Origin: a bacterium
GTDB lineage: Bacteria > UBA9089 > CG2-30-40-21 > SBAY01
DNA length: 7,957 nt
Assembly (NCBI GenBank): GCA_040757115.1
Contig: JBFLYA010000173.1
Location: forward strand, 1 to 7,957
Reading direction: 5' to 3'
Under the pieces are notes generated by a model. That model worked only from the letters and a program-made list of their open reading frames with translations. It ran no database searches and was not told the DNA's origin. A program made the translations under genes and the position numbers. How positions within the stretch are numbered: position 1 is the stretch's first letter; every line of letters starts with the position of its first letter. Below are positions 3 through 7,957 of this stretch, in pieces.

Positions 3-167
3 GAAATGCACTCAACAGGTGCAAGGAGGAACGGCATTTACCCTGTTTCTCTTTATCCTATAGAGATAATAATAAAGGATCCGGTCATAAAAGTCAAGTT
101 TCTTTTTGTTCACAATCAAAGATTTCACAAACTCTCCCATGAGGAGAGAAATATTATTAAATATTAA
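3..167 (+). other. Short open frame, possible C-terminal tail of an upstream gene
   Basis: The third plus-strand frame is open from the window edge for about 54 codons and stops at TAA 165-167. The reading begins EMHSTGARRNGIYPVS and ends near HEERNIIKY. I do not recognise it. The mixed amino-acid composition is slightly more protein-like than expected by chance in AT-rich DNA, but an opening of this size can easily arise randomly. It would overlap the presumed left end of the neighbouring insertion sequence. If real, it is the end of a gene starting outside the window, possibly truncated by the IS. Confidence 0.2.
132..148 (+). promoter_or_regulatory. Small hairpin in the transposase leader
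   Basis: CTCTCC (132-137) can pair perfectly with GGAGAG (143-148) around a five-base loop. It sits about 70 bases upstream of the transposase start and is followed by a very AT-rich run. Leader hairpins in IS elements can limit translation of transcripts that read in from outside, but nothing here proves that role. Part of the stem looks like a Shine-Dalgarno sequence and has no start codon at a useful distance. Confidence 0.25.
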
Positions 168-205
168 TTATAAATTAATTAATAACTATATTAAACATAT
201 TATAC

Positions 206-212
206 GAGGAGG
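206..212 (+). promoter_or_regulatory. Ribosome binding site of the broken transposase
   Basis: GAGGAGG lies seven bases before the ATG at 220. It is a near-consensus site and fixes the start at 220; the frame is also open upstream to an ATG at 106, but that ATG has no comparable site and the added sequence has no transposase character. Confidence 0.75.
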
Positions 213-219
213 AAAAGAG

Positions 220-1546
220 ATGAACCTACTATATTTATCGGCAAGTTTTTACCACATATTGAATACTTTTACAAGTTCTTTTAAAAACAAACAAAGTTTC
301 AACAACTTTGTGACTCTAACTATTGGTTGGTTACTAACACCAGGACGAAAGACTATTACCCGCATAATTCAAACTATAGGTGCAGACAAAAGAAAACATC
401 ATAGTTGTTTCTACAATTTCTTTAAAAGGGCTAAATGGGACATTAACCATTTAGTCTATGGAGTATTGAAAATGATCGTTATCACCCTTATCCCAGAAGG
501 AAGCATTGTTCATACTGTTGGTGATGATATCCTAATTCGCCAAGAGCGGGAAAAAGATTCCAGAAACAGGTATATTCAGAGACTCTGTTCTTTCTACCAA
601 GAAAATCCATGTCTTTAGATGGGGACAAAACTGGGTTACTCTCGGTATCATCGTCAAACTCCCTTTCCTTAATAATAGATATATGTGTTTACCTATTATG
701 GCTAAACTCTGTTCTAAAAAACAACCTTATTCCAAAAAAGAAAAGCTCCCTCAAACTCGTTACCAGATAATGATTGAAATGCTTCAACTCCTTGCGTCCT
801 GGCTGCCAAATCGACAAATCATTCATACCGTAGATGGTGCTTATGCTCATGAAACTATAGTTAATCATCTCCCTGCAAATGTTGAAATTGTTAGCCAAAT
901 TAGAGCTGATGCTGCCCTTTATGAAAAACCTTCTCTTGAAACTCTAAAGAGACGAGGTGCACCACACAAAAAAGGAAACCGATTACAAAAACCAAAAGAT
1001 ATAGCCAATGACCCTCAAATCCCCTATCAAACTATTCAAGCAAATACCTACGGAGAATCTTCTACCTTTTTGGTCAAACAAATAACTGCTCTCTGGTATA
1101 GAGTGGGTAAAAGTAAACCTTTGTCTATCCTTATTGTAAGAGACCCAGAAGGTAAACACCCAGATGCCTTCTTCTTTACCACCCTTCTTTCTTTATCTCC
1201 ATCAATGATATTGGAACTTATTGCTGGTCGCTGGTCAATTGAAATTACTCACCGAGATAGTAAACAGTATATGGGAATTAGTGAACCATAACTCCAGAAT
1301 GAAAAATCAGTAAAAAGACAAATTCCTTTTACTTTCCTCATCATGAGTTTAGTAACCATTTGGTATGTGAAATTAACACACCACACTAATCTTAAACTCT
1401 TTTTACCATGTTCATGGTATTGACACAAACAGACTCCTTCATTCTTTGATATGTTAGTGGTTCTACGGCACAGCCTCTGGACTAATCTATTTTTTGGTAA
1501 CTCTACTTTTGAGGTTGAGATGCAAAAAATTTCCAGGTTATCTTGA
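220..1546 (+). pseudogene. DDE transposase pseudogene, IS701/IS4-like, frameshifted and stopped
   Basis: This was a DNA-cutting and strand-transfer enzyme for its own IS. The N-terminal part runs from 220 to about 540, with the motif GWLLTPGRKTITRIIQ and the first acidic pair GDD (about 523-528). After that the frame changes. The second frame reads KSGKKIPETGIF and then RWGQNWVTLGIIVKLPF, continuing with the second Asp in HTVDGAYAH (833-835) and the Glu in RWSIEITHRD (1241-1243). Deleting one C from the CGCCAAG run at 538-544 joins the frames as IRKSGKK, which fits this transposase type. Further damage is in-frame TAA 1289-1291, TGA 1421-1423 and TGA 1544-1546. Homology-like text continues past the first two stops (SVKRQIPFTF, then HKQTPSFFDMLVVLR), so a single truncated product does not explain it. 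The family name is from remembered motif resemblance; the DDE assignment is firmer. Confidence 0.85.
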
Positions 1547-1669: not shown

Positions 1670-1933
1670 TTAGTTTGTATTCTTTAATTTGTTAATAATA
1701 TATTTTGTTATTGATTCAATATTAACAAAGCTACCTGTGGAATTTAAATCATTATCAGAAACTTCAATATCAAATGTGTTTTCGATTTCCACTATCACTT
1801 TAACAAACTTTAAGGAATCTATTCCATTTTCAGAAAACAACTTAAAATCTGTGTTAATAACAATATTGGAATCGATTTTTAATTTATGTACAAAGATATC
1901 TATTATCTTACTTTCGATCTCTTTTTCATCCAT
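1670..1933 (-). CDS. Free-standing acyl carrier protein
   Basis: An 87-residue carrier protein that would hold an acyl or amino-acyl chain as a thioester on a 4'-phosphopantetheine arm. The attachment motif is GIDSLKFVKVIVEIE, with the modified Ser at residue 40, followed by the usual acidic helix and an FDIEVSDNDL segment. Length is normal for a discrete ACP, so the adjacent IS has not truncated it. The start is supported by CAGGAG at the right distance (about 1942-1947). It lies 33 nt after the ketosynthase gene and is the last gene of the minus-strand set. The context suggests a dedicated pathway carrier, not the housekeeping fatty-acid ACP; a peptidyl carrier role is also possible. No phosphopantetheinyl transferase gene is in view. 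Confidence 0.9.
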   Translation of the reverse strand: MDEKEIESKIIDIFVHKLKIDSNIVINTDFKLFSENGIDSLKFVKVIVEIENTFDIEVSDNDLNSTGSFVNIESITKYIINKLKNTN

Positions 1934-1966
1934 TATTTAACTCCTGCAATACCTAAATCCGCCGAA

Positions 1967-2890
1967 TCACGTTTTTTTTAACAGTATTGCTGACCACTGT
2001 GTACCGATGCTCACGGCGTATAATACGATTAAATCGTCTTTTTTATAGATATTACTGTTAAGTGTATCGGTAATATTTCTAATCGCATCCACATTTCCAA
2101 AGTGTCCACCTTTTGGAATATTATCAAGAAAGATTTTACCTATTTCACAGTTTAGAAAATTACTGTAATATTCATAGGCTTCAATGTTTGTATTTACAGG
2201 TAAAATTCTCGAAATATCATTTATTCCATGATTATTATTTTTAAGTAATTTTAGAATTAAATTTGAACCGTTTTTAATTACTCTAACTGGGGTGCCTTCC
2301 GTCTTAAAAGTATTTTCGTTAATGCTCCCATTTGTGAAAGCACAGTAATCAATAATTTCAAATTCCCCCTTCTTTTCAGTCACTTCCATAATACCTAGCC
2401 CATCACTTATAATTGCAGGGGCTAAATAACGCTTTCTGTCATCTTCCAGGAATGAATTGGCTAATATTAAAATATTCTTTGCAGTATTATTTTTTATTAA
2501 TGCATCTGCAACTTTAATACTAGCAAGCACACCAGAACAGCCTTGTGCAATACTCATAATATTGGCATTGACAAATTTGAACTCCTGATGTAAAGCATAA
2601 ACAATATCTTCGTTGGCTTCCATTGTATTTGTATAGAATAAGTAATCGATACTATTTGCATCAATGCTTTTTTTGTTAAGATACTCTGTAAGCAAATCTT
2701 TATAAATGTTGTACTCATTTTCCCGTTTTTCTTTATATATAAATTCAGTCCCAATTCTAAGTTGGATTGACTCTTTTATATGATCATATTCATTAGCTGA
2801 GCTAGCAATTTTAGAAACAATCTCTTCAATTTTGATTTTGGTTTTTGGTAAATAATAATTTGTATAACCAATATTTGAAAATGTATTCAT
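1967..2890 (-). CDS. Ketoacyl-ACP synthase III (FabH-like), non-canonical active site
   Basis: A 307-residue thiolase-fold protein close to the usual KAS III length. Family members condense an acyl-CoA or acyl-ACP with malonyl-ACP, or act as acyltransferases. The nucleophile is Cys118 in SIAQGCSGVLASIKVADAL, the classic KAS III context. The C-terminal half has FGNVDAI (Asn266), matching the position of the Asn in the GNTSAAS loop of FabH, and ends GTQWSAILLKK like the FabH C-terminus. The canonical HQAN motif is absent: the aligned stretch is PVNTN (231-235), and a His (263) lies just before the conserved Asn instead. This suggests an acyltransferase or a divergent ketosynthase. GGAG five bases before the ATG supports the start. 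The gene begins 10 nt after the radical SAM gene and leads to the ACP, its likely partner. Confidence 0.88.
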   Translation of the reverse strand: MNTFSNIGYTNYYLPKTKIKIEEIVSKIASSANEYDHIKESIQLRIGTEFIYKEKRENEYNIYKDLLTEYLNKKSIDANSIDYLFYTNTMEANEDIVYALHQEFKFVNANIMSIAQGCSGVLASIKVADALIKNNTAKNILILANSFLEDDRKRYLAPAIISDGLGIMEVTEKKGEFEIIDYCAFTNGSINENTFKTEGTPVRVIKNGSNLILKLLKNNNHGINDISRILPVNTNIEAYEYYSNFLNCEIGKIFLDNIPKGGHFGNVDAIRNITDTLNSNIYKKDDLIVLYAVSIGTQWSAILLKKT

Positions 2891-2900
2891 ACAATCTCCA

Positions 2901-4334
2901 TTATTCTATATGTTTTTGAAGTTCTAGATTAAATTCCTTTTCCAAAATAGAAAAGAAATAAATAAAACTCTCTTTAAGTATAGGATTTATTTTTAGTATT
3001 TTCTTAACAGTTTCTTGATAGTTTTCTGAACTATAAATTCTATAATATAGATCCTTTGCAAATTTATTTAGGTCTGTATAATGTTTTGTCTTTAAAACTT
3101 GGCACTCTATTGTCGCATAACTGGGATTCTTATATTTTTCTGCAAGCCATAAATTTTCTTCATCTACCCTCTTTCTTAATCTTGTACCTAAAAAAGGATA
3201 AGTAAAGGAAAGTGTAAACCGTGTAAATGGGATGGTCGGGAGTTCTCTATTAATGGCATCTAATACCTCCATTTCTTCATTGGCATATCCTACCATTAGT
3301 AAACAGGAAGATAGGATTCCGTTATTAATCGTGGTTTCAAACGCTTTCCTGATATGGTTAAGGTTAATGCCTTTTCTCATTGTTTTTAAAATATTGCTGT
3401 CTAGACTTTCAACTCCGTATGAAATCGCGACGACCCCTGCTTTTTTTAAATATATGAGCATTTCGTTATCTACTTCATTTACCCTTCCGAATATAGTTAT
3501 AGGAGTTTGTAATGAATGGAAGTGGATTTTATCGCATAATTCATACAACCATTCCTTATTACTGGTTAAGCATTCATCTGCAAATTGTATATGATTGACA
3601 TTATATTTTATTTTTAGAATACGAATTTCATCAATAATATTATCAGGTGTTCTATAGGTAACTTTATTACTCCAGGAAACTCTGTTTGTACAAAATTCAC
3701 AATTATATTTGCACCCGCGAGATCCAAAAACGAGAGCAGATCTTTGCTTATTTGAAGGAGGATAGTTAAGTGCATGGACTGCATACTGCGAAAAATTAGT
3801 ATGTTTCCTGTCAGGAAAGGATATTGAATCTATATTCATAATTCTTTCCCTGTTTTCTTCTTCAAAAATTTGATTCCCAACCTTGTGAAAGATACCCTTG
3901 CACCTTTCTAGTGGTTTATGATTTTCTATTCTATCCAGCAATTCTGCAAAGGTGGCCTCACCTTCACCTTTAACTGCAATATCTACACATTTATGTGCGA
4001 TCGCGTTTGGATCAGTCGTAACATGAATACCACCTATAATAGTAATAATCCGAGGGTTAATTTTTTTAATTTCATTAAGCATCTCAATGGTTTGATTGAA
4101 ATTTGCAGACCAGCATGAACAGCACAATATTTCTGGGGCAAATGTATTAATTTCTAAAAGCATTGTTGCAAAACTTTTATTTGCCTGCTGCAGGACTAAT
4201 GTTGTATGACCTTGCTTCTCAGCAATAGCAGATAGATATTCTAAGGCCAAAGGTTCAGATATAATATAACTATCATGATCTTCTTTGAACCCTTTTTTTA
4301 GGCTGCACGACATCTCAACAAAAATTATCTTCAT
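2901..4334 (-). CDS. B12-binding-type radical SAM enzyme (copy 1)
   Basis: A 477-residue protein. Residues 1 to about 150 form a Rossmann-like cobalamin-binding-type domain, with the MKIIFVEMS first strand, PLALEYLSAIAEKQGH, the loop IIGGIHVTTDPN (99-110) and VKGEGE (121-126). The radical SAM core follows, with the iron-sulfur cluster cysteines 208, 212 and 215 in GSRGCKYNCEFC, then FADE (251-254), GVES (307-310) and PFLGT (380-384). The last 90 residues form a helical tail of unknown role. No DxHxxG lower-ligand motif is visible, which is common in this class. Relatives methylate unactivated carbon or carry out other radical rearrangements; the substrate here is unknown. AAGGAAG at 4343-4349 supports the start. 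It is separated from the upstream radical SAM gene by a gap holding an IS remnant, but is tightly linked to the ketosynthase downstream. Confidence 0.9.
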   Translation of the reverse strand: MKIIFVEMSCSLKKGFKEDHDSYIISEPLALEYLSAIAEKQGHTTLVLQQANKSFATMLLEINTFAPEILCCSCWSANFNQTIEMLNEIKKINPRIITIIGGIHVTTDPNAIAHKCVDIAVKGEGEATFAELLDRIENHKPLERCKGIFHKVGNQIFEEENRERIMNIDSISFPDRKHTNFSQYAVHALNYPPSNKQRSALVFGSRGCKYNCEFCTNRVSWSNKVTYRTPDNIIDEIRILKIKYNVNHIQFADECLTSNKEWLYELCDKIHFHSLQTPITIFGRVNEVDNEMLIYLKKAGVVAISYGVESLDSNILKTMRKGINLNHIRKAFETTINNGILSSCLLMVGYANEEMEVLDAINRELPTIPFTRFTLSFTYPFLGTRLRKRVDEENLWLAEKYKNPSYATIECQVLKTKHYTDLNKFAKDLYYRIYSSENYQETVKKILKINPILKESFIYFFSILEKEFNLELQKHIE

Positions 4335-4497
4335 TTTTTATTCTTCCTTACAATATTATTTAGTGCCTAAACGGAAATTGATTTTTACTTTATATTCTTT
4401 TATTTTCTGATTAATTTGTTACCTCTTCAATCTGTAAGCTATATGAGCAGTGAGCATCTGCTGATATTGGATAATCAGGTAAATGATTTTTTCTCAA
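4335..4497. other. AT-rich leader between the IS remnant and radical SAM gene 1
   Basis: About 160 bases with no open frame worth calling. It ends in the ribosome binding site of the minus-strand gene that follows. On the minus strand there is a very weak promoter-like pair (TTGAAG, then GAAAAT after 17 bases), too poor to annotate. No riboswitch or operator was recognised. Confidence 0.4.
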
Positions 4498-4509
4498 AAT
4501 ATTTCCCTT

Positions 4510-4527
4510 GTGGTCTACTCCCGTTGA
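4510..4527 (+). repeat. Left terminal inverted repeat of the IS remnant
   Basis: An 18-base arm, GTGGTCTACTCCCGTTGA, matching the reverse complement of 4727-4744 without mismatch. The minus-strand transposase stop codon (4515-4517) falls within it. Confidence 0.9.
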
Positions 4528-4658
4528 ATGGTAGATAGAGTGAAACAATCCCCAAGAGACCAGACTTTATCGGTAAGGCCAGCAACCATCGCTGGTGTCC
4601 GACCCTGATATTCCCCTTCTACAACCTTTATTGGTAATGTCCTTTTTTGTGGGGAGAA
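4515..4658 (-). pseudogene. C-terminal remnant of an IS transposase
   Basis: The minus strand is open for 47 codons ending at TAG 4515-4517. It reads QGRTPAMVAGLTDKVWSLGD followed by a short tail. TPAMxAGLTDxxWSL is a typical C-terminal signature of DDE integrase-core IS transposases, remembered best from IS1-like elements whose tails read TPAMEAGLTDHVW. An in-frame TAA at 4659-4661 lies directly upstream, and no catalytic region remains within the inverted repeats. It is unrelated to the transposase at 220-1546, which has a different fold signature and end sequences. The exact IS family is uncertain. Confidence 0.75.
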
Positions 4659-4693
4659 TTAATTGCTCCCTGCTTCAGTTATCGGCAAACATG

Positions 4694-4722
4694 TGTATAC
4701 TTTAATTTAAGCACGTCACCAA
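4694..4722 (-). promoter_or_regulatory. Candidate sigma-A-type promoter inside the IS remnant
   Basis: On the minus strand TTGGTG (4717-4722) and TATACA (4694-4699) are separated by exactly 17 bases. Each matches the consensus only partly. It lies just inside the right end, where an IS normally carries the promoter for its transposase. With the gene deleted, transcription from here would run toward radical SAM gene 1, the ketosynthase and the ACP. Confidence 0.3.
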
Positions 4723-4726
4723 ACCC

Positions 4727-4744
4727 TCAACGGGAGTAGACCAC
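4727..4744 (-). repeat. Right terminal inverted repeat of the IS remnant
   Basis: An 18-base arm, TCAACGGGAGTAGACCAC on the plus strand, the perfect partner of 4510-4527. Confidence 0.9.
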
Positions 4745-4757
4745 CAGGAATATTTGA

Positions 4758-4908
4758 AGATTAACTAAATTAATTCCTGTTGCAATTAAAGAATTATGAA
4801 TTTATTTGCCTCACAGCACACAGCTCACGGCAAGTTATCTTCAAGAGTTTATATTTGCTGAATAATCTCAATAATACTTACTTTCAATAAATTCCGTTCA
4901 AGCACAAC
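4758..4908. other. Spacer after radical SAM gene 2
   Basis: About 150 bases with no gene. TTGCC (4806-4810) and GGCAA (4829-4833) could close a loop containing two near-copies of a CACAGC-like word, but the stem is short and no run of T follows on the minus strand, so it is a poor terminator candidate. Nothing else was recognised. Confidence 0.4.
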
Positions 4909-6288
4909 TTACTTATTATAATTTTCGTAATATTCATATGAGCTTTGAATTTTATTAATAAAGGAATCAAAACTAGAATTTTTCCCTTCATAAAAAATGG
5001 CGCCTTTGCTTTTCCTTTCCGCTGAATATTTAAATAAATTGGCAAATTCAAAATAAAATTCTTTTAAAGGTAATTCAGTTTTCAAAAAAGTATGAAAACA
5101 ATCGAAAAACTCTAGTTTATTAATAATGAATTGATCTTTTAATCTAAAATAATCATCAGTACCAAAGAATGGTGTTAATACAGCAAATGTAGGTCGGTCG
5201 ATATTAAGACGTTTCACTTCTTTTAATAAATTTGCAAAATCTACTTTCGTATAATCCTGACGCACAATAAAATTGGCTCTGATTTCAATTCCGTAACTAT
5301 GCAGGATTTCTACACATTGATAAGCCATGTTTAAGGAAATCTTCTTTCTATAGATTTTCAGTTCCTTTTCATATATGGATTCCAGACCAATTAATACGGA
5401 ATCCAAACCAATTTCTGCCCATTTTTTAAAAAGATCAGGATTTCTTACAACACTATCCGATCGTACATACATATGATATTTTTTCTGAATTTTTGCTTCA
5501 TTAATCCTGTCTGCAAGAGCATGCATCTTCTTAACATCGATAAAAGCTTCATCGTCAACCACATAAATATTCTTGTTGCTTATAGATTTAAGCTCTTCAA
5601 TTATTTTTTCATTTTGTCGTGTTAAGTACCTGCGATTACATAGTTTCCAGAGTATACAAAAAGAACAATTATATGGACAGCCATATGAAAACCGAATAAG
5701 GGACACCGGATCATAATGTGCATGAAAATAGAGATTACTATATTTCTTCAGAAGCTTTCTGTCTGGAGCAGGGAATACATCTATAGATTCAATATCTTTA
5801 CTATAAGTAAACTGCAACTTACCATCATGATTATAATAATATAAGTTGGGAATATCTATTAACGGCTTATTATCGCTTAAATTGTCCACTAAACTGTGAA
5901 AGGTTTCAACTGCTTCACCCGTAAGAATGTAATCCACATACTCAAGGTTTAAATGATATAGGGTCACAGTTGGATGGTGTCCGCCGATTACAATTTTAAT
6001 TGCTGGAAAATCATTCTTAATTGCTTCCAATAATCTATTACAAGTATGAACAACAACACTGTACGGAACTGAAAGACCGATTAAATTGGGATTTGTCTTT
6101 TTAATTATTGTTCTAATATCATCTTTTTCAAATCGCATATCGATGATATCTATATCATATTTATCCATAAGGGGAGCCCCCAGATATTCCAAAGGTAGCG
6201 GTTCACAACAACTAAAGTCTTCCGTTAAAACGCAGTAATCTGGTGATGGTGGCCAAATAAGAAGTATTTTCATATTACTTAATTCCAT
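4909..6288 (-). CDS. B12-binding-type radical SAM enzyme (copy 2)
   Basis: A 459-residue protein with the same layout as the other radical SAM gene but clearly different in sequence. The N-terminal cobalamin-binding-type domain has MKILLIWPPSPDY, PLPLEYL, IGGHHPTV (101-108) and LTGEAVE (122-128). The radical SAM core has cysteines 204, 208 and 211 in YGCPYNCSFC, then VVDDEAF (243-249), GLES (301-304) and PFFGT (373-377). No DxHxxG motif is visible. Family members include cobalamin-dependent methyltransferases and other radical enzymes; the substrate here is unknown. The start is ambiguous. The ATG at 6288 has no clear ribosome site, while the internal ATG at 6273 begins directly at the first beta-strand and has a weak GGA ten bases upstream. 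It follows argJ by 15 or 30 nt, so it is probably cotranscribed and may be translationally coupled. Confidence 0.9.
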   Translation of the reverse strand: MELSNMKILLIWPPSPDYCVLTEDFSCCEPLPLEYLGAPLMDKYDIDIIDMRFEKDDIRTIIKKTNPNLIGLSVPYSVVVHTCNRLLEAIKNDFPAIKIVIGGHHPTVTLYHLNLEYVDYILTGEAVETFHSLVDNLSDNKPLIDIPNLYYYNHDGKLQFTYSKDIESIDVFPAPDRKLLKKYSNLYFHAHYDPVSLIRFSYGCPYNCSFCILWKLCNRRYLTRQNEKIIEELKSISNKNIYVVDDEAFIDVKKMHALADRINEAKIQKKYHMYVRSDSVVRNPDLFKKWAEIGLDSVLIGLESIYEKELKIYRKKISLNMAYQCVEILHSYGIEIRANFIVRQDYTKVDFANLLKEVKRLNIDRPTFAVLTPFFGTDDYFRLKDQFIINKLEFFDCFHTFLKTELPLKEFYFEFANLFKYSAERKSKGAIFYEGKNSSFDSFINKIQSSYEYYENYNK

Positions 6289-6303
6289 TAATTAATCAAA
6301 TAT

Positions 6304-7509
6304 TTACGATAAATAATTTGCATTTATCTTTATATAGTCAATGGAATAATCACAAGTCCAAATTGTTTTAGATTTAGTACCTATGTTTAAATCCACTGTT
6401 ATCGTTATTTCTTTTCCTTTTAAGGAATTCCTTACTTTTTCCAGGGTTTCTTTTTTAGCACAAGGTTCGCCCTTATCTACAATCAGATAATTATTCAAAT
6501 GCAGCCTGAGTTTATCGTACTTTAATCCAGTCCTGGCTTTACCAATAGCCATTAATATACGACCGTAATTTAACTGTTCACCAAATAAAGCAGTTTTGAC
6601 CAAAGGTGAATTACCGATTGAATAAGCAATTTGTTCAGCGTTTTCGAAAGTCGGGCTATTGATTACATTAATTGTTATGTATTTTGTAGCCCCTTCTCCA
6701 TCTCGGATCATTTCCTGAGCCAGCGTTAACAAAACATCTTTCAAGTTCTTGTAGAATAATGCGTACTCATTATCTTTAGTAGTAATCATTTTATTATTGG
6801 CAATGCGGTTAGATAAAAAAAAGACTGAATCATTTGGGCTAGTATCTCCATCAATCGTGATACAATTAAATGTCTCATTTACAACATCTTCCAGCATTGC
6901 TTTCATCATATCATATGAAATTTTAGCATCGGTAATCACAGTAGAGAGCATCGTTGCCATATTAGGCATAATCATACCCGCACCTTTTACACAGGCACCG
7001 ATCGTTACGGGAATACCGTTTAATGGGAAAGTAACTGAGGCTTGTTTTATTTTAGTATCTGTAGTCATGGTTGCTTTAATAAAATCTAATGCGCTATTTT
7101 CATCACTTTGCAGTTTTTCAACTACCTTAGGAAGTGCTGCAAGGATTTTTTCCATATCTAATTCAATACCGATTACTCCAGTAGAACCAATATAACATTC
7201 TGATGTATTAATCCCTAACATTTTGGAAATGACTTGTAGACATTTTATTGAATCTTGGATTCCTTGTTTACCTGTAAACGCATTTGCGTTACCACTATTA
7301 ATAAGCACAGCTCGTTTTTTTTGAGATAATTTATCATTTTCTTTAGACACTATCACAGGAGAGGCAATGATATCACTTCTGGTATACATAGCCACTCCAT
7401 ATGTATCATTTTGTTCTGAAAATAATAATCCAATATTATTTTTTTTATTTTCCAAAGCAATACCTGCAAACTTGAATCCCTGAACGCTTGACAAACCTGT
7501 TTTACTCAT
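6304..7509 (-). CDS. argJ: ArgJ-family ornithine acetyltransferase homologue
   Basis: A 401-residue member of the ArgJ family, whose known members transfer an acetyl group from N-acetylornithine to glutamate after self-cleaving into two chains. Full-length hallmarks are GFKFAGIA near the start, NSGNANAFTG (71-80), the oxyanion-type STGVIG (109-114), KGAGMIMPNMATML (175-188) with the predicted cleavage before Thr186, TIDGDTSPNDS, DGEGATK, LNYGRILMAIG and the C-terminal DYSIDYIKINANYLS. The catalytic Thr is present, so it should be active. The usual tail ending is NADYTT; here it is NANYLS. AAAGGAG about six bases upstream sets the start. No argC, argB, argD or argF is adjacent; it lies between an unknown gene and a radical SAM gene. 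That argues for a pathway-specific acyl transfer, comparable to the OAT2 protein of clavulanate clusters, though a displaced arginine gene is possible. Confidence 0.93.
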   Translation of the reverse strand: MSKTGLSSVQGFKFAGIALENKKNNIGLLFSEQNDTYGVAMYTRSDIIASPVIVSKENDKLSQKKRAVLINSGNANAFTGKQGIQDSIKCLQVISKMLGINTSECYIGSTGVIGIELDMEKILAALPKVVEKLQSDENSALDFIKATMTTDTKIKQASVTFPLNGIPVTIGACVKGAGMIMPNMATMLSTVITDAKISYDMMKAMLEDVVNETFNCITIDGDTSPNDSVFFLSNRIANNKMITTKDNEYALFYKNLKDVLLTLAQEMIRDGEGATKYITINVINSPTFENAEQIAYSIGNSPLVKTALFGEQLNYGRILMAIGKARTGLKYDKLRLHLNNYLIVDKGEPCAKKETLEKVRNSLKGKEITITVDLNIGTKSKTIWTCDYSIDYIKINANYLS

Positions 7510-7511
7510 AT

Positions 7512-7522
7512 ATTCTCCTTTC
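7512..7522 (-). promoter_or_regulatory. Ribosome binding site of the argJ homologue
   Basis: GGAAAGGAGAA on the minus strand includes AAAGGAG, placed about six bases before the ATG at 7509. It lies in the 18-nt gap after the stop of the preceding gene and fixes the argJ start. Confidence 0.75.
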
Positions 7523-7527
7523 CAAAT

Positions 7528-7957
7528 TCATTTTAATAATACGGCTTTTTTGATATTTAAAAAATCCATTAAAAAACCCTCATGAGGATCCAAATAATTA
7601 TAACCACGTTCTAGATATTTATCACCAAATATTTTTAAAATCGTTTTATTATAACATAATTTATTAATTAATTCATTATTATTCGATACTATACTCAAAA
7701 TTAAAGAATGGGCACAATAAGATTCAATTTCTGCTTCCGGCACCTCAATTACAGTAATGAAAGGGAAAAATAACTGATAATTCCAAAATTGGCATATTAC
7801 TACGAGATTGTTTAGGTTATGAAGGATGCGAAATGAAAATGCTCTTGGATAAGGGTTTGCAAGTTGCATTCCCGATTTATTTTTCTTGTAATCTGAGTAA
7901 TAGTGAATTTTGAAAAAGCCCTTTTGGTTTTTAGCTGTAATATTATCAAATAGGCTA
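7528..7957 (-). CDS. Unrecognised protein, C-terminal part (5' end outside window)
   Basis: The frame stays open from the stop at 7528-7530 to the window edge, giving about 142 visible residues. The first ATG in view (7869) is probably internal, because about 29 more codons precede it (including KGFFKIHYYSDYKKNKSG) and no ribosome site is visible before it. I do not recognise the family. The visible part is hydrophobic in the middle (VVICQFWNYQLFFPFITVIE), mixed in charge, and ends near YLDPHEGFLMDFLNIKKA. There is no cysteine cluster, nucleotide-binding loop or clear membrane helix. It ends 18 nt before argJ on the same strand, so it is probably in the same operon and may act in the same pathway. 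The missing N-terminus may hold the diagnostic domain. Confidence 0.65.
   Translation of the reverse strand, partial: SLFDNITAKNQKGFFKIHYYSDYKKNKSGMQLANPYPRAFSFRILHNLNNLVVICQFWNYQLFFPFITVIEVPEAEIESYCAHSLILSIVSNNNELINKLCYNKTILKIFGDKYLERGYNYLDPHEGFLMDFLNIKKAVLLK

Follow-up and report, generated by a model that had tools for sequence, protein, structure and literature searches.

The window analysed here, 7,957 bases long, is one complete contig (C173) of an assembly of 4.32 Mb in 462 contigs. Domain and family searches identified on its minus strand genes for an acyl carrier protein (ACP), a KASIII-like protein, two B12 radical-SAM enzymes and ArgJ, which are the five gene families that the preliminary description had placed on one strand. 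In order of position, they are: the ACP gene (1670-1933; PF00550, E = 5.1e-8, with a DSL serine); the gene of a KASIII-like protein with an altered active site (1967-2890; PF08541/PF08545); that of the second cobalamin radical-SAM enzyme, designated 'rSAM_B', with a BchE-like score (2901-4334; PF04055 and PF02310, CxxxCxxC at residue 208); that of a ThnL-type cobalamin radical-SAM enzyme (4909-6288; B12-binding and radical-SAM domains, CxxxCxxC at residue 204); and an argJ paralogue of the glutamate/ornithine N-acetyltransferase family (6304-7509; PF01960, E = 1.8e-122, NCBIfam ArgJ above the cut-off). The intergenic gaps from ACP to ArgJ are 33, 10, 574 and 15 nt, so that the spacing of 10 to 33 nt first given for most of the genes holds for three of the gaps, but not for the one between the two radical-SAM genes. 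The 574-nt gap contains a 27-nt inverted repeat (arms 4501-4527 and 4727-4753, 199 nt apart, 89% complementary), which bounds a small element (4501-4753) that looks like an insertion; its core was absent from every other locus fetched. Mobile-element sequence is found at both contig ends. On one side, a broken IS701-type transposase (106-1291, plus strand; two pieces, both matching NF049999) flanks the 3' end of the operon, downstream of the ACP gene; on the other, one end of an insertion sequence (7774-7957, minus strand) lies inside a thnO-like gene.

This last situation was recognised in an anonymous open frame of 142 amino acids (7528-7957), composed of the 3' end of the thnO-like reductase gene (7528-7773, minus strand; 41 to 43% identity to ThnO of Streptantibioticus cattleyicolor) and of the insertion-sequence end. 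The last bases of the window recur at the ends of other contigs, and homology to the copies on contigs C187, C105 and C61 begins exactly at CTGATAATTCC, position 7774. The opposite end of the insertion sequence, with an identical 11-bp terminal repeat, is present on C320 and C32. On C320, a single nucleotide separates a thnN-like gene from the thnO-like gene behind it, which halts at CTGATAATTCC and constitutes the N-terminal part of the interrupted gene (L050:123-1283). A 5-bp target duplication, TTATT, flanks the insertion sequence; once the latter and one TTATT copy are removed, the flanks form a single thnO frame of 465 amino acids, which is 54% identical, end to end over 467 columns, to the ThnO of Anaerobacterium chartisolvens. 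The matching insertion-sequence ends, the 5-bp duplication and the restored frame argue for a pre-insertion order thnN-thnO-argJ-thnL-rSAM-KASIII-ACP. No contig spans the element, and we infer with confidence that C320 joins C173 through it.

For the product of the upper radical-SAM gene, a search of plasmids gave as best match a protein of the S. cattleyicolor megaplasmid (38% identity over 98% of the length). In a tree that took in near non-carbapenem relatives, for which 386 and 58 genomes had been searched, the window protein, its A. chartisolvens counterpart (56% identical) and ThnL occupied one side of a branch with 100/100 support. Eighteen residues are specific to the clade, being shared by the seven ThnL-clade members that were compared and absent from each of the six outgroup proteins. 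On phylogenetic grounds, we thus place this gene in the ThnL clade, which is that of the thienamycin-type carbapenem clusters. A passage in PMC13331322, citing a PNAS paper of 2022, reports that ThnL makes a thioether, by coupling a thiol at C2 of the carbapenam. Relatives outside the clade were 33 to 41% identical, and the seven regions examined around them (17 to 19 kb each) were devoid of thnN, thnO, CarB and beta-lactam synthetase genes. The hopanoid C3-methylase HpnR was considered as an identity for the protein and dropped: the NCBIfam score was 228 bits for a cut-off of 650, and in the tree HpnR is not among the members of the ThnL clade. In the other genomes sampled from the same genus, family, order and phylum, there was no ThnL-type match at E <= 1e-40.

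The matching region of S. cattleyicolor (pSCAT) encodes a B12 radical-SAM protein, aldehyde-dehydrogenase-like, AMP-ligase-like and asparagine-synthase-like proteins, and the ThnL match, beyond which are found a KedN5-like radical-SAM protein, an MFS transporter, a LysR regulator and, farther, a crotonase. From this gene content and order, we take the region to be the thienamycin cluster. It is unannotated in the record, and the Thn names are given by homology; they are supported by the alignment of its crotonase with the CarB-type enzyme of A. chartisolvens. The thienamycin cluster resembles the operon by the presence of thnN (47%), thnO (26 to 42%, in pieces) and thnL (38%), with the ThnE and ThnM genes close to these homologues. 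However, the gene order is not the same, relatives of argJ, KASIII and ACP were absent from the 31 kb fetched, and the ThnK, ThnP and PhyH-type (2OG-oxygenase) genes have no counterpart in the window. ThnN is also of one family with EhpF, from a phenazine antibiotic cluster (111 bits to 3l2k). EhpF adenylates a carboxylate, which a partner dehydrogenase then reduces; its substrate differs from that of ThnN.

A closer parallel was found in A. chartisolvens DSM 27016, where the seven genes occur in the identical order thnN-thnO-argJ-thnL-rSAM-KASIII-ACP. For the six orthologous genes, identity ranges from 34 to 71%: ThnN 71%, ThnO as given above, ArgJ 55 to 56%, ThnL 56%, KASIII 39% and ACP 34%. 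The set co-occurs in the genome of another group, and the earlier proposal of a biosynthetic operon is supported. The surroundings of the A. chartisolvens genes differ from those in our genome by additional genes. Upstream are a CarB/ThnE-like crotonase (best solved relative CarB, 217 bits, compared to 96 for the best crotonase beyond the two CarB-type entries), a CarA-like beta-lactam synthetase (best solved relative CarA, with Tyr345, Glu380 and Lys443 aligned) and a PLP decarboxylase; also present are an acyl ligase, EtfBA, a PapA/condensation-type protein and an acyl-CoA dehydrogenase. No PhyH-type gene was seen in this region. As a whole, this carbapenem-type cluster of a cultured anaerobe (L057, 2748-21102) seems to be intact; we found no description of it in the literature searched.

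A co-occurrence scan was then carried out with the ThnL alignment on one genome per species, and nine ThnL-like loci were recovered. All nine contain thnN, and the eight complete ones contain thnO, CarB/ThnE and beta-lactam synthetase genes as well. The ninth, in a Syntrophomonadaceae bin (L063, 9578-10940), is what is left of this operon after decay, with 75 to 87% identity to A. chartisolvens: the end of thnN adjoins the end of argJ, thnL is broken, and the sequence has an internal deletion as well as a frameshift. The core of CarB/ThnE, beta-lactam synthetase, ThnN, ThnO and ThnL recurs in an anaerobe, a myxobacterium and actinobacteria. The myxobacterium, Corallococcus exercitus, has a compact set of the five (L058, 4620-11371).

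The gene order of A. chartisolvens beside ring-forming genes, and the presence of thnN, thnO and ring-forming genes at the ThnL-like loci, lead us to consider the operon as part of a complex-carbapenem (thienamycin-type) cluster, in a variant form shared with the anaerobic clostridium, with a probability of about 0.78. Judged by its genes, the variant has ArgJ, KASIII and ACP built in and is not a new pathway class. The epithet 'uncharacterised' is thus justified in part, for the functions of rSAM_B, KASIII and ACP, but not for the type of cluster, which membership of the ThnL clade and the presence of thnN and thnO mark as carbapenem. The analysis does not support the idea of a set distinct from carbapenem clusters: one radical-SAM enzyme is a ThnL relative, thnN and thnO are the genes lacking upstream of the window's set, and CarB/ThnE-type and CarA-type genes occur in the intact A. 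chartisolvens cluster. In place of the radical methylation of an acyl-amino acid suggested at the outset, we would propose a carbapenem scaffold with a C2 thioether, the enzyme being related to ThnL and not a ThnK-type methylase. The literature searched contained no report of carbapenem-type clusters from clostridial anaerobes, nor of any from the group to which this genome belongs.

The set present in this genome is, on the same comparison, a segment of a variant-type carbapenem cluster, not a complete one. The combination of thnL with thnN and thnO expected of complex carbapenem clusters is present, with thnO interrupted by the insertion sequence. With ThnE as a query, no crotonase (carboxymethylproline synthase) was found in this genome at E <= 10, while five of five control genomes scored. 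The nearest beta-lactam-synthetase homologue is on a separate contig, C32; its best solved match is CarA, and its catalytic Tyr is replaced by Phe. Based on these three points, the pathway is probably dead or incomplete in this genome. A history of gain followed by decay fits best. The region of C32 concerned (L024, 5963-17688) is a second large cluster, apparently cut by mobile elements, and a tentative candidate for the missing half of the window's cluster. It comprises a cupin, a B12 radical-SAM protein, a methyltransferase, a KASIII paralogue (28% identical to that of the window), an adenylation domain in two frames, the beta-lactam-synthetase-like gene, a PvcA/DIT1-like gene and a short TPP-enzyme frame.

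Such a distribution could also be read as a derived pathway, in which ThnN, ThnO, ArgJ and ThnL are reused on a non-beta-lactam scaffold, the ACP carries the substrate, and carboxymethylproline synthase is truly absent. This would account for the lack of a crotonase in an assembly whose completeness is given as 99.87%, and it is consistent with the location of the Tyr-to-Phe synthetase homologue in another cluster, together with the PvcA-like, adenylation and KASIII genes, as well as with the dissimilarity of rSAM_B to the second radical-SAM enzyme of A. chartisolvens. We nevertheless hold it to be unlikely: from thnN to ACP, the genes follow one another as they do in a cluster endowed with the carbapenem ring genes, and a broken thnO is easier to reconcile with decay than with a novel pathway in working order. 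That the genes are neighbours by chance, or through an assembly chimera around transposable elements, may be suspected from the mobile-element sequence at the two contig ends. Yet, apart from the second radical-SAM gene, the seven-gene order is common to a distant bacterium at 34 to 71% identity; this conservation argues against chance juxtaposition, and such an origin appears extremely improbable.

If the operon does derive from a carbapenem cluster, a scheme can be drawn for the complete pathway. The carbapenem route starts at pyrroline-5-carboxylate, which CarB/ThnE uses (PMC6097109). Together with the match between ThnN and EhpF, this makes the synthesis of glutamate semialdehyde the simplest role for ThnN and ThnO: ThnN would activate glutamate or N-acetylglutamate at the side-chain carboxylate, which ThnO would then reduce to the semialdehyde. 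Since argJ stands between thnO and thnL, we suggest a cycle in which glutamate is protected by acetylation, as it is in the synthesis of arginine. In this step, the weakest of the scheme, the ArgJ paralogue might act as an acetyl shuttle between N-acetylglutamate semialdehyde and glutamate; acetyl protection would block closure of the activated intermediate to pyroglutamate, and the freed semialdehyde would close to pyrroline-5-carboxylate. Carboxymethylproline synthase and beta-lactam synthetase, for which A. chartisolvens has genes, would then produce the carbapenam, and ThnL, by homology, would install the C2 thioether. For the KASIII-like protein, the ACP and rSAM_B, the likeliest task would be to assemble or pass on a side chain.

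The ArgJ of the window retains the self-cleavage motif KGAGMIMPNMATML, with its Thr nucleophile, and it groups with the ArgJ of the A. chartisolvens cluster in a clade with 100/100 support. It is an extra copy, since the genome has another ArgJ on contig C23, 42% identical to it. As a member of the ArgJ family it resembles OAT2 of the clavulanate clusters, for which a role in boosting arginine or ornithine supply has been proposed, and the paralogue could likewise do no more than this, without catalysing a pathway step itself. This is conceivable, if less probable than a dedicated step: its best solved relative is an OAT2-type ornithine acetyltransferase (1vz6, 158 bits), and a carbapenem region of Catellatospora also has an OAT2-like ArgJ gene, upstream of the ring-forming genes and on the same strand. 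Actinobacterial OAT2-like copies group apart from the window-type copies in the tree, and the window has no clavam genes. Two independent recruitments of ArgJ looked likely from this tree, but this was abandoned because a single origin of the cluster ArgJs was not rejected (p-AU 0.281); such a common origin would also favour a role in supply. Against it stand the location of argJ directly between thnO and thnL in both this genome and A. chartisolvens, and the fact that the carbapenem route starts at pyrroline-5-carboxylate (PMC6097109).

According to the same source, C5 epimerisation and ring desaturation in complex carbapenem biosynthesis are open questions. The recurring five-gene core narrows the candidates for these two steps, and for the supply of pyrroline-5-carboxylate. 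As A. chartisolvens is a cultured strain, its cluster is directly testable.

The functions of the last three genes were considered separately. In the KASIII-like protein, Cys118 is kept, Val occupies the position of the FabH His, and His263 that of the FabH Asn, so that the FabH-type Cys-His-Asn triad is incomplete; its relatives have Leu or Pro at the FabH His position. With the FabH His absent and a His at the Asn position, the protein may be an acyltransferase and not a condensing enzyme. Its AlphaFold model was too poor (pLDDT 49.6) for the geometry of the active site to be checked. Used as a query, it retrieved no relatives from the genome-contig or plasmid collections searched, and within the phylum its gene gave weak matches alone. 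In anaerobes, the ACP, the KASIII-like protein and radical-SAM/flavin chemistry might stand in for the 2OG oxygenases and the CoA-trimming enzymes that Streptomyces uses, making up an O2-independent carbapenem route in which ThnL possibly has as its partner the phosphopantetheine thiol of the ACP, or else a side chain bound to the ACP. This proposal is speculative, and we regard it as doubtful.

A first radical-SAM tree was built without several paralogues of this genome, and a second took in two of them. In these trees, rSAM_B grouped with paralogues from its own genome, away from ThnK and ThnP, and both identities were discarded; lying outside the ThnK group, it does not qualify as a ThnK-type C6 methylase. 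It is only 23% identical to the second radical-SAM enzyme of A. chartisolvens. At another locus (L123, G234:C75, 6151-9192), near which no carbapenem genes were found, a relative of that A. chartisolvens enzyme (34 to 37%) adjoins a ThnL-like gene (36%).
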